A program made the translations under genes and the position numbers. A stretch of DNA of 64,000 nt from Luteibacter aegosomatissinici. GTDB taxonomy: Bacteria; Pseudomonadota; Gammaproteobacteria; Xanthomonadales; Rhodanobacteraceae. Below, in pieces: positions 5,610 through 10,488 of the stretch. A model generated the notes under the pieces. That model had not been told where the DNA came from. It ran no database searches and worked only from the letters and a program-made list of their open reading frames with translations. Position 1 is the first letter of the stretch, and the number at the start of each line of letters is the position of its first letter. Where the stretch lies: the NCBI RefSeq assembly GCF_023078495.1, contig NZ_CP095742.1, positions 2,046,001-2,110,000 of the forward strand, read 5' to 3'.

Positions 5610-5640
5610 TGTAGGAGCGCGCTTGCGCGCGATCCCTACA
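5610..5640. repeat. REP hairpin between convergent genes
   Basis: A REP-type element with the core GTAGGAGCGCGCTTGCGC. Outer arms TGTAGG/CCTACA and inner GCGCGC arms form one hairpin. It lies between the convergent recO and REC-HPt gene, where it could stop transcription in both directions. Its right end provides the TAG stop codon of the minus-strand gene. Similar elements occur at 13.75, 23.95, 26.2, 45.8 and 46.95 kb. Confidence 0.8.
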
Positions 5641-6388
5641 GCGCAAGTGCGGTAATGGTCGCCTCAAGCTCCCGGCGAAACCGCTCGATCACGGCGGGCG
5701 CCATATACCTTGCATCCACGACATGCCCCTGCAGGGCCTTGGCCTGCGCCCCCAGGCGGGTTGCACCGCAGAAGCCGCATGCCGAGCGCAGGCGGTGCAA
5801 CCGGTCGACCAGGCCGGCCGGATCGTGTGCCAGGGTATGCAACTCGCTGCGCAGATCGAGAAGCTCCCTGTGCAGCAATTCGCGCAAGGTGCGCATGATG
5901 GCCGCGTCGCCCGTTGCCGTGAGCCCCTCCTTGTCATCCAGCACGTCCACGCGCGGATCCACGCCAAGCACGGCTTCCAGTGCATGCTTGAGTGCACTGA
6001 TCTTGCATGGCTTCTCAATGACACCCGCAAAGCCGGCATCGGCGAGATCGTCACGCAGTGTCCCTGGTATCTCCGCGCTGGTGGCGAAGGCAGGGGCGCC
6101 GGCCGAGGCCGCATCGATGCCTTCCCGGAGGTCGCGAAGGATATCCATGGCCCCGCCGTGCGGCATTCGGCAATCCAGCACGAGCGCATCGAACTTCGTG
6201 GCGCATGCATGGCGCAGCGCGTCCTTGCCATCCACCGCAAGCGTCACGTCATAGCCCAGTGACACCAGGGCCCCAGAGAGGAACTGGCGCGTGGAGGGGT
6301 CGTCATCCGCGACCAGTACGGCGCGCAGGGTACGGCGGTCAAGTGGGGGAGGGCGGTTCGGGTCCACGCAACGTTCCATGTCGTTCAT
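5636..6388 (-). CDS. Response regulator with REC and HPt-like domains
   Basis: Signalling protein of 250 residues. The receiver domain (about 20-140) has the acidic pocket D28-D30, phosphoacceptor D72 in LVLDCRMP, and switch lysine K126 in IEKPC. The C-terminal part (about 160-250) is all-helical and contains LHRLRSACGFCGA, which matches the HPt motif around the phosphorylated histidine; H198 would be that residue. There is no DNA-binding output domain, so it probably belongs to a multistep phosphorelay whose kinase is elsewhere. It is divergent from the ydbH homologue with about 24 bp between starts. The stop codon is provided by the neighbouring REP element. Confidence 0.85.
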   Translation of the reverse strand: MNDMERCVDPNRPPPLDRRTLRAVLVADDDPSTRQFLSGALVSLGYDVTLAVDGKDALRHACATKFDALVLDCRMPHGGAMDILRDLREGIDAASAGAPAFATSAEIPGTLRDDLADAGFAGVIEKPCKISALKHALEAVLGVDPRVDVLDDKEGLTATGDAAIMRTLRELLHRELLDLRSELHTLAHDPAGLVDRLHRLRSACGFCGATRLGAQAKALQGHVVDARYMAPAVIERFRRELEATITALAL

Positions 6389-6412: not shown

Positions 6413-8440
6413 ATGCGCCGCGTATCAACCCGCCCACTCGCATTTTTCCTTGTCGCCTGGATTGCGCTCTCCTGGGGGGCGCCCGCGCATGCGGGCCTTT
6501 CGGTGGGCGCGGATAGCGTTTCCGTTCCGGGGCTCAGCCTGACCGATATGCAGGCGGACCTGAACCCGCAGGGCGACGGGAAGGGCATCCAGCTGCAACT
6601 GACGGCAAAGAAAGCCGACGTGCCCGCCATGGGCTGGCGCAAGCTTGGCCTGGCGCTGGAAGGCCAGCTGGATCGCGATGAACTGGGTCGCTGGGTGTTC
6701 GAGGGCCGGGTGCGCCTGCGTGGCGCGCCCGGTGGCGCGCTCACCGACGCTGCCGTGCGTATCGTGGCGGACGAAGCCGCCAATACGCTGGCCGTCTCGG
6801 TGACCCAGGACAAGGCGGTGGCCGAGGTCGCCTTGCCGATCGACCAGGTCACCCACGCGCAGATCACGCTGAAGAACCTGCCGGCAGGCTGGCTGCAGGG
6901 GCTCCTGTCTACTGTCTGGTCGGGCCGTCCGACCGCGGGCAAGGTCAACGCGGACCTGGCGCTGGACCTGCTCGATACCGGCACGCAGGCAGCGGGCCAG
7001 TTCGCGCTCGACGGCGTGGGCTTCGACAGCCCGGGCGGCAAGCTGGCCGGGCAGAAAATCAGCGGTAGCGGCCGACTGGGCCTCGATACCAGCCAGGAAG
7101 GCGCCACGATCGACCTCGATGCCGCCCTGCGGGGTGGTGAATGGCTGCTTGGGCCGCTCTATGCCAACCTGCCCGCGCACGCCGTGCAGGTTTCCCTCTC
7201 CGCGCGTTCCCAGAAAGGCACGCTCGGCATCCGCCGGCTGCGCCTGACCGATCCCGATGCACTCCAGCTGGAGGGTGAGCTGGGTTTTGATACGAAGGGC
7301 GAACTCAGCACGTTACGCCTCGATCGCTTCAACGCGCGCTTCCCGGCCGCCTACGACCGCTACGGCAAGGGCCTGGTGCGCACGTGGGGCCTGGATGGCC
7401 TGCGAGCGAGCGGTGATGTGGCCGGCCACCTGGCCATGGGCCCCGGCGGCCCCACGGCGTTCGCGGTCCAGACCGGTGACCTGGACCTGGCGATGGCGGA
7501 TGGCCGCCTGGGCGTGAATGGCCTGCACGGTTCCGTCGACTGGAGCGTGGATGAAGATCGCCCCACGACGCGCATGGGCTGGCAGAGCCTGCAGGTCTAC
7601 CGTATCCCCAACGGTGCCGCGGAGGGCACGTGGCGTAGCAAGGGCGGCACCCTCGCACTCGAGAAGCCCATGGCCATCCCGGTGCTCGACGGCAACCTGC
7701 GCGTCCTGTCGCTTGGCTGGAAGCCCGCGGCTGCCACTGGCGAGCGCCTGCAGACATCGCTCGCGCTGACCCAGATCGACATGGGGGCGTTCTGCCGGGC
7801 CGTAGGGTGGCCGGAGTTCGGCGGGACGCTGGGCGGTGCCGTGCCGTCACTGCGTTATGTGGATGACCGGGTGGAGCTGGGTGGCGGGCTCGCGCTGAAC
7901 GTTTTCGATGGCTTCGTCGATATCACCGGCATGACGCTGTCGCGTCCGTTCAGTGATGCTCCCGTGCTCGCCGGGAATATCGCGCTGCGCAACCTCGATC
8001 TGGCGAAAATGACCTCGGTGTTCGATTTCGGCAGCATCACGGGCCGCTTGCACGGCAGCATCGATGATGTGCGCCTGGTGGCCTGGCAGCCCTCGGCGTT
8101 CAAGGCGACGTTGCTTGCCGACCAGGGCGGCCGTATCAGCCAGAAGGCCGTCAACAACCTCACTTCCGTCGGCGGCGGCGGTATCGCCGGCGGCCTGCAG
8201 GGCACCGTGCTCAAGTTGTTCAAGACGTTCGGCTACCGGCGCATCGGGCTCAACTGCACGCTCAAGGGTGATGTCTGCAGCATGGGTGGCTTGGGCGCCA
8301 CGAAGGATGGCTACACTATCGTCGAGGGCAGCGGCCTGCCGCATCTCACCGTGGTCGGCCACCAGCGCGAGGTCGACTGGCCCACGCTGCTCCGCCGCCT
8401 CCAGGCCGCCACCAAGGGCGATGGCCCCACCATTCAATAG
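6413..8440 (+). CDS. ydbH: YdbH family (AsmA-like) envelope protein
   Basis: Probable bridge protein moving phospholipid between inner and outer membrane, as described for E. coli YdbH (redundant with TamB and YhdP). 675 residues from the ATG at 6413; a TTG at 6395 is possible, but the ATG has a GGAG-type site and starts a clean signal sequence (MRRVSTRPLAFFLVAWIAL, cleavage after APAHA). The body is long beta-rich repetitive sequence without catalytic motifs. The C-terminal block with NLTSVGGGGIAG, then FKTFGYRRIGLNCTLKGDVC, resembles the conserved end of the YdbH family. It is shorter than the E. coli protein (about 880 residues). The following gene encodes its usual partners, which supports the call. 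Confidence 0.82.
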   Translation: MRRVSTRPLAFFLVAWIALSWGAPAHAGLSVGADSVSVPGLSLTDMQADLNPQGDGKGIQLQLTAKKADVPAMGWRKLGLALEGQLDRDELGRWVFEGRVRLRGAPGGALTDAAVRIVADEAANTLAVSVTQDKAVAEVALPIDQVTHAQITLKNLPAGWLQGLLSTVWSGRPTAGKVNADLALDLLDTGTQAAGQFALDGVGFDSPGGKLAGQKISGSGRLGLDTSQEGATIDLDAALRGGEWLLGPLYANLPAHAVQVSLSARSQKGTLGIRRLRLTDPDALQLEGELGFDTKGELSTLRLDRFNARFPAAYDRYGKGLVRTWGLDGLRASGDVAGHLAMGPGGPTAFAVQTGDLDLAMADGRLGVNGLHGSVDWSVDEDRPTTRMGWQSLQVYRIPNGAAEGTWRSKGGTLALEKPMAIPVLDGNLRVLSLGWKPAAATGERLQTSLALTQIDMGAFCRAVGWPEFGGTLGGAVPSLRYVDDRVELGGGLALNVFDGFVDITGMTLSRPFSDAPVLAGNIALRNLDLAKMTSVFDFGSITGRLHGSIDDVRLVAWQPSAFKATLLADQGGRISQKAVNNLTSVGGGGIAGGLQGTVLKLFKTFGYRRIGLNCTLKGDVCSMGGLGATKDGYTIVEGSGLPHLTVVGHQREVDWPTLLRRLQAATKGDGPTIQ

Positions 8441-8484
8441 GTACATGTACGCGGTGACGCCGCAACCGATAAAGGAATAGACGA

Positions 8485-9090
8485 ATGTCCCGCAAACCAC
8501 TGATTGGCCTGATCTTCGCCGCCGCCATCGCCTTGGTCGGCTGCGTCACCATCAACGTCTACTTCCCCGAGGCGGCCGCCCAGAAGGCCGCCGACCAGTT
8601 CATCGGCAACGTGCTTGACGATAGCGGCGTCGCGCCAGCGGCGGGCGACAAAGCGCCACCCAAGCCCGCCGCCGGCAAGCAGCCTTCGGCCTCGCTTCTG
8701 GATTTGGTGATCCCCAGGGCCATGGCGGCCGAAAGCCCCGATATCCAGGTGCGCTCGCCAGAGACCGACGCGATCCGGGCACGCATGAAGGGCCGCTTTG
8801 GCGGCCAGCTCAAGACCCTGTTCGATTCCGGTGCGGTCGGCTTCACCGCCAATGGCCTGGTGGCTGTGCGCGATGCCGGCTCACTACCGCTGGATCAACG
8901 CTCGCAGGCGGCCAGCGTGGTGCGTGACGAGAACAGCGACCGCGACCAGCTCTACAAGGAAATCGCCAAAGCCAATGGCCACCCCGAATGGGAGCCGCAG
9001 ATCCGCAAGACCTTCGCCGCGGGCTGGGTCGAGCGCGCCCCCGCGGGCTGGTATTATCAGGACGCCTCCGGCGCCTGGAAACGCAAGTAA
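8485..9090 (+). CDS. Lipoprotein: YnbE-like head fused to YdbL (DUF1318)
   Basis: 201 residues. The signal peptide ends in a lipobox (IALVGC, C20), so it should be a lipoprotein. Residues 21-46 (VTINVYFPEAAAQKAADQFI) resemble the core of the small outer-membrane lipoprotein YnbE. A Pro/Ala-rich linker follows (about 50-75), then residues 90-201 resemble YdbL/DUF1318, including the ending GWYYQDASGAWKRK. In E. coli ynbE and ydbL are separate genes after ydbH; here one reading frame appears to combine both. It lies 44 bp after ydbH and is closed by a terminator. Family assignment is from recognised motifs; the fusion is an inference from order and length. Confidence 0.78.
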   Translation: MSRKPLIGLIFAAAIALVGCVTINVYFPEAAAQKAADQFIGNVLDDSGVAPAAGDKAPPKPAAGKQPSASLLDLVIPRAMAAESPDIQVRSPETDAIRARMKGRFGGQLKTLFDSGAVGFTANGLVAVRDAGSLPLDQRSQAASVVRDENSDRDQLYKEIAKANGHPEWEPQIRKTFAAGWVERAPAGWYYQDASGAWKRK

Positions 9091-9146
9091 GCCCTTCGCC
9101 AGGATCGCACGCCGCGCTGTATGCCCGCGCGGCGCCTCCCAGCCCG

Positions 9147-9180
9147 GCCCGGACCGCCCCGTCCGGGCTTTTAGTTTTTT
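9147..9180 (+). terminator. Intrinsic terminator after the ydbH operon
   Basis: Perfect 8-bp stem GCCCGGAC/GTCCGGGC with a six-base loop, followed directly by TTTTAGTTTTTT. Ends 7 bp before the rlmD start, so rlmD must be transcribed from a promoter within or near this element, or by read-through. Confidence 0.9.
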
Positions 9181-9186
9181 GAGCGC

Positions 9187-10488
9187 ATGACCGAATTCGA
9201 AGCCACCATCACCGACCTCAGCCACGACGGCCGAGGCGTCGCCCGCATCGACAACAAGGCCACGTTTGTTTCCGGCGCGCTGCCGGGCGAGCGCGTGCTG
9301 TTGAAGTACCGCAAGCGTCACCGCAACTACGACGATGCCGAGGTTGTTTCGATCATCGAGGCGTCGCCCGATCGCGTCGAACCGAAGTGCCGCCATTTCG
9401 GCCAGTGCAGCGGCTGCTCATTGCAGCACATGGCACCGGAAGCGCAGATCGCCGCCAAGCAGCGCGTGCTGGCCGAAAACTTCGAGCGCATCGGCAAGGT
9501 CACCCCGGAAAGCTGGCTGCCGCCGCTCACCGATTCGCCGTGGAGCTACCGCCGCAAGGGCCGGTTCTCCGTGCGCTTCGTCAACAAGAAGGATCGCGTC
9601 CTGGTCGGTTTCCGCGAGGAATCCAATCCGCGCTTCGTGGCCGATATCGATGTGTGCGAGGTCATCCACCCTGCGATCGGCCCGAAGGTGGGTTTGCTCG
9701 CCACGTTGATCCAGGGCCTGGATTCAGCGCGCGACATCCCGCAGATCGAGTTCGCCGCCGGTGACGACACGGTCGCCCTCGTGTTCCGCCATCTTTCGCC
9801 GCTCAGCGAGGGCGACCGCGCCAGGCTCACCGCCTTCGCGCAGGAGCACGGCTTCGCGATCTACCTGCAGCCAGGCAACCACAGCAGCGTGCATGCGTTG
9901 TGGCCGGAGGCGCCGCGCCTGTCGTTCGCCATCCCTGCGGATAACGTCGAGCTGGAGTTCCTGCCGCTCGATTTCGTACAGGTCAACGCGGGCATGAACC
10001 AGCGGATGCTTGCGCGTACGCTCGAATTGCTTGACCTGAAGTCCACCGACAAGGTGCTCGACCTGTTCTGCGGCCTGGGCAACTTCACGTTGCCGATTGC
10101 CCGACATGCGGCCGAGGTGGTGGGTGTGGAAGGTGAACACGGGCTGGTGCAGCGCGCCGCTGAAAACGCCGCCCGTAACGGCATCGCCAATGCGTCGTTC
10201 CGCGTGGCCAACCTCTTCGAAGACCAGCGCGAGGAGCCCTGGGCAAAGCAGGCCTGGGACAAGATCCTGCTCGACCCGCCGCGTGCCGGCGCCGACAAGG
10301 TGCTCGAGTACCTGCCGCGCAAGGGCACCAACCGCATCGTGTACGTCTCCTGCCACCCCGGGTCGCTGGCCCGGGATGCGGGTATCCTCGTCGAGAAGCA
10401 CGGCTTCCGGCTCGTGTCGGCCGGTGTGATGGATATGTTCCCGCACACCGCTCACGTTGAATCCATCGCGCTGTTCGAGCGCGGCTGA
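9187..10488 (+). CDS. rlmD: 23S rRNA (uracil1939-C5)-methyltransferase
   Basis: SAM-dependent methyltransferase making m5U1939 in 23S rRNA. 433 residues. TRAM domain at the N terminus (EFEATITDLSHDGRGVARID), then iron-sulfur cysteines in CRHFGQCSGC with a further one in DVCEVIHP. The SAM-binding motif is VLDLFCGLGNFTLPIA, and the catalytic cysteine is in VYVSCHPGSLARD. Length and motif order match RlmD/RumA rather than TrmA or RlmC. Confidence 0.93.
   Translation: MTEFEATITDLSHDGRGVARIDNKATFVSGALPGERVLLKYRKRHRNYDDAEVVSIIEASPDRVEPKCRHFGQCSGCSLQHMAPEAQIAAKQRVLAENFERIGKVTPESWLPPLTDSPWSYRRKGRFSVRFVNKKDRVLVGFREESNPRFVADIDVCEVIHPAIGPKVGLLATLIQGLDSARDIPQIEFAAGDDTVALVFRHLSPLSEGDRARLTAFAQEHGFAIYLQPGNHSSVHALWPEAPRLSFAIPADNVELEFLPLDFVQVNAGMNQRMLARTLELLDLKSTDKVLDLFCGLGNFTLPIARHAAEVVGVEGEHGLVQRAAENAARNGIANASFRVANLFEDQREEPWAKQAWDKILLDPPRAGADKVLEYLPRKGTNRIVYVSCHPGSLARDAGILVEKHGFRLVSAGVMDMFPHTAHVESIALFERG

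Follow-up and report, generated by a model that had tools for sequence, protein, structure and literature searches.

A gene pair was characterized in a 64,000-nucleotide (nt) stretch of the Luteibacter aegosomatissinici genome (NZ_CP095742.1, positions 2,046,001 to 2,110,000), referred to hereafter as the window; the source genome is a single contig of 4.99 Mb. The pair consists of a 675-amino-acid (aa) ydbH-like open reading frame (ORF) followed, after a gap of 44 nt, by a 201-aa ORF for a lipoprotein that ends in a YdbL domain. We put at roughly 57% the probability that the pair represents the YdbH-YnbE-YdbL intermembrane lipid-bridge operon in a form with two genes, in which one lipoprotein both docks and chaperones. 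The operon is known; what is new is an alternative form with a predicted outer-membrane head and YdbL in one lipoprotein. A literature search did not find a YnbE/YdbL fusion, though most subscription papers lay outside its reach.

We infer the docking site, outer-membrane location, cis chaperoning and lipid transport as follows. The ydbH-like protein would be a periplasmic beta-groove for lipid, and Cys20 would hold the lipoprotein in the outer membrane. The conserved strand VTINVYFP and the helix behind it would bind where the groove ends, at its C-terminus, making the outer-membrane link that is the job of YnbE in Escherichia coli. The C-terminal YdbL domain would be, in cis, the chaperone or cap that E. 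coli supplies in trans; it would keep the docking strand from self-assembly and set a 1:1 ratio.

YdbH, TamB and YhdP have been proposed as E. coli phospholipid transporters that are collectively essential, and the outer-membrane lipoprotein YnbE interacts with YdbH (PMC12977461); another report proposes the contact at the YdbH C-terminus (PMC12045153). A plasmid bearing ydbH-ynbE-ydbL relieves the bile-salt sensitivity of an E. coli K-12 strain without yhdP and tamB (PMC8593681). The genome studied here also carries separate TamB and YhdP matches, and the gene pair may therefore likewise be one route among several redundant ones. YnbE reportedly lengthens the groove through strand augmentation, and YdbL is said to stop runaway YnbE multimers; it is on account of these roles that the fused lipoprotein is read as a dock with its chaperone attached. 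YnbE docking and the role of YdbL are recent questions, and a widespread polypeptide that joins head and YdbL is genomic evidence that both act at the same step. A two-protein system would also be simpler to reconstitute.

The pair shares with E. coli K-12 YdbH-YnbE-YdbL (b1381-b1383) its gene order, a YdbH-type groove, a lipoprotein encoded directly after ydbH and DUF1318. It differs in that lipoprotein and YdbL are one polypeptide and in that the head is without detectable YnbE homology. TamAB similarly combines an AsmA-like protein with an outer-membrane partner, as described in PMC12045153, but that partner is a beta-barrel.

The YdbL domain and the distribution of the fused form

As had been proposed from the sequence alone, a single gene 3' of the ydbH-like gene encodes a lipoprotein whose tail is YdbL/DUF1318. 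Its lipobox ends at Cys20. The Pfam profile PF07027 (DUF1318) matched aa 108-201 with an E-value of 5.7e-22 (78.5 bits against a cut-off of 27), and a profile of 56 fused lipoproteins matched one of 17 split YdbL proteins in hhalign (E 9e-14). The AlphaFold2 model of the lipoprotein, built with 74 sequences, had a mean predicted local distance difference test (pLDDT) score of 86.3, and Foldseek matched it to the E. coli YdbL crystal structure 28oj (E 4.2e-4, probability 1.00, template modelling (TM) score by target 0.81). The E. coli protein, whose molecule name in the PDB is 'Probable chaperone-like protein', has the same DUF1318 fold; it is stand-alone, with 87 residues in the crystal, whereas the window domain is tethered to a lipid-anchored head. 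By analogy, we propose as its function a chaperone-like action on the docking lipoprotein. Profile searches of the 4.99-Mb genome found no second DUF1318 and no separate ynbE or ydbL gene over cut-off, and none of the NCBIfam profiles matched the lipoprotein at E-values up to 1. The closest named relative among the matches listed, from which the source genome's own records were perhaps excluded, was from Luteibacter yeojuensis (88% identity).

A sample of 229 genomes of the class to which the window genome belongs was screened with PF07027, PF13617 (YnbE) and PF11739 (YdbH). DUF1318 was found in 66 of them, at 67 places. PF13617 matched in 21 genomes, all of which have DUF1318, and PF11739 in 22, including all 21 with ynbE. 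The long lipoprotein was present in 45 genomes (43 with the head motif, two with a degenerate head) and split ynbE plus ydbL in 21, while none had both; the fused and split states, a survey of which had been suggested earlier, are mutually exclusive in this sample. Neither PF13617 nor PF11739 matched in any of the 45 long-form genomes. With the places of the window and of genome G210 not refetched, 65 of the 67 were read, giving 42 long lipoproteins by motif, 18 places with ynbE by motif and five unmatched; addition of 15 loci from the order brought the counts to 55, 20 and five. The unmatched places were two split ones recognized by PF13617 (G123 and G263), two degenerate-head long forms (L111 and L116) and a lone short DUF1318 in G158.

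The two states also occur within the order. A whole-protein search of the window genome and its nearest relatives, 81 genomes in all, gave a match in 64 and none in 17. Nearly full-length matches were obtained in 62, and in the other two (G055 and G080) only the tail matched and ynbE lay upstream. When each species was represented by one genome, at least 556 stretches encoding relatives were detected, and the best 80 of 556 were kept. Among 73 named loci, 68 have a ydbH-like ORF, recognized from its position and a loose pattern in its tail, ahead of the lipoprotein gene, with a median gap of 43 nt; the 73 are those in which the lipoprotein was read by script, seven of 80 loci being unread.

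In a phylum sample of 299 genomes, DUF1318 was found in 94 and PF13617 in 76 (71 over cut-off). Twenty places, chosen mostly for long open frames, were read: five had a CVTVN(I/V)YFP head, six a third type of head, one (L263) an apparent degenerate long form, and eight were short. No PF13617 match was found in the genomes of the five CVTVN(I/V)YFP-head lipoproteins. One family (f200) contains both split (G311 and G318) and fused (G314) genomes.

An unrooted tree of DUF1318 (77 rows, 98 columns, many unresolved forks) was built from every second of the 55 class and order fused sequences plus the window, 37 split sequences, five with the VTVN head and six of the third type. All 34 fused rows, the VTVN-head ones included, fell on one branch (support 91, below the program's mark of 95), the 37 split rows on another (support 95) and the third type on a third (support 98). 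The four groups need three changes on the tree, which is the minimum possible. As judged from these sequences, the fused form is one old group, present outside the class too. The tree data are short and unrooted, and they are compatible with either fusion or fission. The gene arrangement itself is real, general and old.

Departures from these forms were also seen. The short stand-alone DUF1318 protein of G158 (L081) occurs in a genome that also has a long fused lipoprotein (L079), with no ynbE motif near L081 and no PF13617 in the genome; it may be contamination, because the assembly is 81% complete. In two genomes of one genus (G136 and G272; loci L107 and L113) the split ydbL is broken by a TGA inside DUF1318, and a shortened YdbL may be normal in that genus. 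The six third-type loci (L264-L269) have a lipoprotein-DUF1318 architecture with the head CGGPLLEVT(L/V)VDERTALENQ or close to it. Their upstream ORF is 1046-1077 aa in four loci and 612 aa in one, and the sixth locus ends early; the two long ORFs that were scanned with Pfam gave only sub-cut-off YhdP or AsmA matches.

The lipoprotein head compared with YnbE

Two alignments of fused lipoproteins (A1 and A2) were made from rows selected through the head motif. Cys20 was invariant in both, as were F27 and P28 in A1 and V21, T22, N24, Y26, F27 and P28 in A2. Mean column entropy in A1 was 1.01 bits for the head and 1.52 for DUF1318, but since the rows were picked on that motif, head conservation in A1 and A2 is partly by construction. 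The fair figure is the 43 of 45 long-form class genomes that keep the motif, because these were found via DUF1318 only. The helix behind the head strand was modelled with pLDDT values of 93 and 85 in its blocks. A Val after the lipidated Cys is expected, by the +2 rule, to direct sorting to the outer membrane, where we infer from the sequence that the lipoprotein is anchored through Cys20. The two degenerate heads (CATTNAYFP and CTTNKRYFP), from genomes G121 and G261 of one genus, are followed by a linker in which an AxA motif is retained, as seen by eye.

The sequence-only reading had also held that the head resembles YnbE, and this was not borne out. PF13617 did not match the lipoprotein, and genome-wide it gave nothing over cut-off (best E 0.144, at another place). 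With the lipidated Cys removed, hhalign aligned only five to six columns of head and YnbE (VTINV/ITINM or VTINVY/ITINMN), and shuffled or reversed heads did roughly equally well. Homology was rejected with a 21-sequence YnbE profile, against which the head scored 11.3, a value equalled by 16 of 300 column shuffles, and its reversal 12.6. It was rejected as well with a 49-sequence profile (head 11.4, equalled by 13 of 200 shuffles; reversed head 11.6). A second YnbE-like candidate, DIxIxTPAI after the AxA of the linker, was discarded, as 53 of 200 shuffles scored as high. At the level of sequence, head and YnbE would share a strand motif at most. Sequence homology being undetectable, the equivalence of the two rests on position and mutual exclusion, and judged by these the head stands in for YnbE.

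The lack of significant similarity would also fit a lipoprotein that is an outer-membrane-tethered YdbL and nothing more, with the head as an anchor or sorting element and the groove using another outer-membrane partner or none. We regard this as unlikely, since no PF13617 match occurs in the 45 long-form class genomes, and retention of the motif in 43 of them is unexpected for a simple anchor.

The groove protein and its N-terminus

The gene upstream had been called a ydbH homologue, a claim that stood in part. PF11739 matched neither the 675-aa protein nor anything else in the genome, and six groove proteins from related loci had no Pfam match above cut-off. A profile of 33 fused-type groove proteins (45 collected, 12 dropped for doubtful ORF start or identity) did match the split-type YdbH profile, from which one of 17 was dropped, with an hhalign E-value of 6.6e-6 (probability 85). 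The C-terminal tails, compared in a larger set, scored 43.5, a value that none of 150 column shuffles reached (maximum 24.3; reversed 16.2). These comparisons support homology to the AsmA-like/YdbH group, while the case for YdbH as the nearest family within it comes from synteny with DUF1318 and from the profile-profile result. The AlphaFold2 model was of high confidence and nearly all beta (mean pLDDT 89.9). Foldseek placed the beta-rich proteins ApoB100, teneurin and LptD at the top of its PDB matches, with low TM scores, at most 0.20 by query in the 50 rows listed, and the groove profile had no match up to E 1 among sequences of solved structures.

The protein is 204 residues shorter than the 879-aa E. 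coli YdbH, in agreement with the difference of about 200 first noted, and its N-terminus is signal-peptide-like. N-termini were compared by a heuristic rule rather than by SignalP, namely a small-x-small motif near where the 12 most hydrophobic consecutive residues end; a script picked the start codons, and 12 of 45 class and order proteins and four of 17 split YdbH were excluded. The motif was found in 31/33 and 61/64 fused-type groove proteins (two sets), in 16/17 split YdbL (exported, the positive control) and in 4/13 split YdbH (anchored, the negative control; 4/16 in another count). The median hydrophobic stretch was 14 residues in split YdbL, 18 in split YdbH and 14 in each of the fused sets. 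In the AlphaFold2 model the groove protein begins with a helix at aa 7-21 only, of low pLDDT. The pattern suggests that in the gammaproteobacterial fused type a cleavable signal peptide replaces the inner-membrane anchor. The shorter YdbH may thus reflect more than a change in length, the anchor being absent by this heuristic.

An anchorless groove could be a periplasmic shuttle, or a half-bridge hung from the outer membrane that needs an inner-membrane partner. Either would be compatible with the other readings, and we hold the idea tentatively, at clearly less than even odds. The agreement of the fused sets with split YdbL rather than split YdbH speaks for it. The heuristic nature of the rule, the script-chosen starts and the excluded proteins speak against it; strict AxA was less telling (17/33 and 47/64 fused, 6/17 split YdbL, 1/13 split YdbH), and outside the class only two of four groove proteins of fused systems conformed to the rule, some appearing anchored by eye. 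Were it so, the need for a fixed inner-membrane anchor would come into question.

Several of these observations weigh against a two-gene lipid bridge as proposed here. The sequence similarity of the head to YnbE is not significant. When AsmA-like proteins of E. coli were compared one by one, the fused profile scored higher with TamB (29.1) and AsmA (28.4) than with YdbH (25.7), followed by YicH (24.0), YhjG (23.5) and YhdP (17.5), so that single-sequence scores are uninformative on specificity for YdbH. The split YdbH profile itself matched YicH with E 4.3e-5, and cross-family AsmA-like matches of similar strength therefore occur. Because the groove protein seems to be without an inner-membrane anchor, a continuous inner-to-outer bridge is unsupported. 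The chaperone role of YdbL, finally, is one that Kumar and colleagues reportedly describe in a PNAS abstract of 2024.

The linker island and the locus

The Pro/Ala linker noted between head and tail corresponds to a segment rich in Pro, Ala and Lys (approximately aa 46-69), with a mean column entropy of 3.02 bits in A1. The conserved island behind it had an entropy of 2.00 bits in A1, and of 1.33 against 2.79 for the preceding linker in A2. A79 and A81 were Ala in 98-100% of rows in both alignments. The consensus around the island is "LLD..IP.A.A", with Pro commonest at -5, H, Q or Y at -2 and A or Q at +1. Pro at -5 and H, Q or Y at -2 are preferences of signal peptidase I. The island thus resembles a signal peptidase I site in sequence and could release the YdbL domain, which makes it less certain that fusion retains YdbL on the membrane, as had been proposed.

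On that view the lipoprotein would be a polyprotein that is cut, with signal peptidase I as the probable enzyme, after the AxA at aa 79-81 into a 62-residue lipid-anchored head and a free periplasmic YdbL. We consider this improbable, if a little less so than a merely tethered YdbL. AxA followed the hydrophobic run in 122 of 128 distinct fused lipoproteins by script and in five more by eye, the last having AxS, and it lies in a variable stretch where pLDDT is about 60 from aa 51 on, island included. By eye, five relatives of the lipoprotein from beyond the class also have the AxA, as do the two with degenerate heads. These counts are raw, without a shuffle comparison, in linkers that are Ala-rich, and an earlier script that sited the island by hydrophobicity gave 104 of 128, having misplaced it in several rows. 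Unlike a signal peptide, the 18 residues ahead of the hydrophobic run have a mean net charge of -0.5, and a charged residue lies 12 or fewer residues before AxA in 109 of 123 islands. Within a lipoprotein, such a segment would meet the membrane in a topology unfavourable to signal peptidase I, and the type-3 lipoproteins of the phylum sample have no such island by eye. If cleavage did occur, the fusion would fix stoichiometry and not membrane attachment, and the head peptide would be YnbE-like in size.

The island may instead be a docking segment. An internal translation start yielding a separate exported YdbL seems unlikely, since the residues that lead up to the hydrophobic island carry a slightly negative charge on average. 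A soluble, anchorless groove might also be combined with an AxA-cut precursor in the gammaproteobacterial fused clade, giving a docking peptide and free YdbL at 1:1 and an outer-membrane-hung groove that moves lipids without bridging two membranes; we think this combination quite improbable, and more so than either the shuttle or the cleavage taken singly. The apparent absence of the anchor and the AxA island, neither of them noted in the sequence-only reading, may be the more important features. The preferred two-gene reading is laid out by feature in Table 1.

Table 1. Features of the gene pair and its 3' flank, in window coordinates
Feature	Position	Strand	Basis
ydbH-like gene, 675 aa, predicted periplasmic beta-rich protein (AsmA-like/repeating beta-groove)	6413..8440	+	hhalign, tail shuffles, AlphaFold2
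Putative signal peptide of ydbH-like protein, aa 1-27 (...APAHA|G)	6413..6493	+	heuristic rule
Fused lipoprotein gene, 201 aa	8485..9090	+	ORF, Pfam, alignments
Lipoprotein signal peptide and lipidated Cys20 (LVGC; +2 Val)	8485..8544	+	sequence
Head: strand-like VTINVYFP (aa 21-28) and helix (aa 29-45); proposed YdbH-docking element	8545..8619	+	conservation, pLDDT
Variable Pro/Ala/Lys linker, aa 46-69	8620..8691	+	entropy, pLDDT
Conserved island LLDLVIPRAMA, aa 71-81, with signal-peptidase-I-like AxA	8695..8727	+	alignment columns
YdbL/DUF1318 domain, aa 108-201	8806..9087	+	PF07027, Foldseek, hhalign
Terminator-like hairpin 3' of the lipoprotein gene, before the RlmD-like gene	9146..9169	+	weak, near shuffle level

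Three terminator-like hairpins were found in the region against a mean of 1.7 in shuffles, barely above chance expectation. To the left of the ydbH-like gene, a divergent gene on the minus strand (5636-6388) encodes a response-regulator receiver domain and, behind it, a weak Hpt-like region below the cut-off. Downstream lies an RlmD-like methyltransferase gene (9187-10488). Of 68 named fused loci, 52 have a motif of RlmD-type enzymes further along that strand; in the class and order sample, where flanks were shorter, 14 of 55 do.

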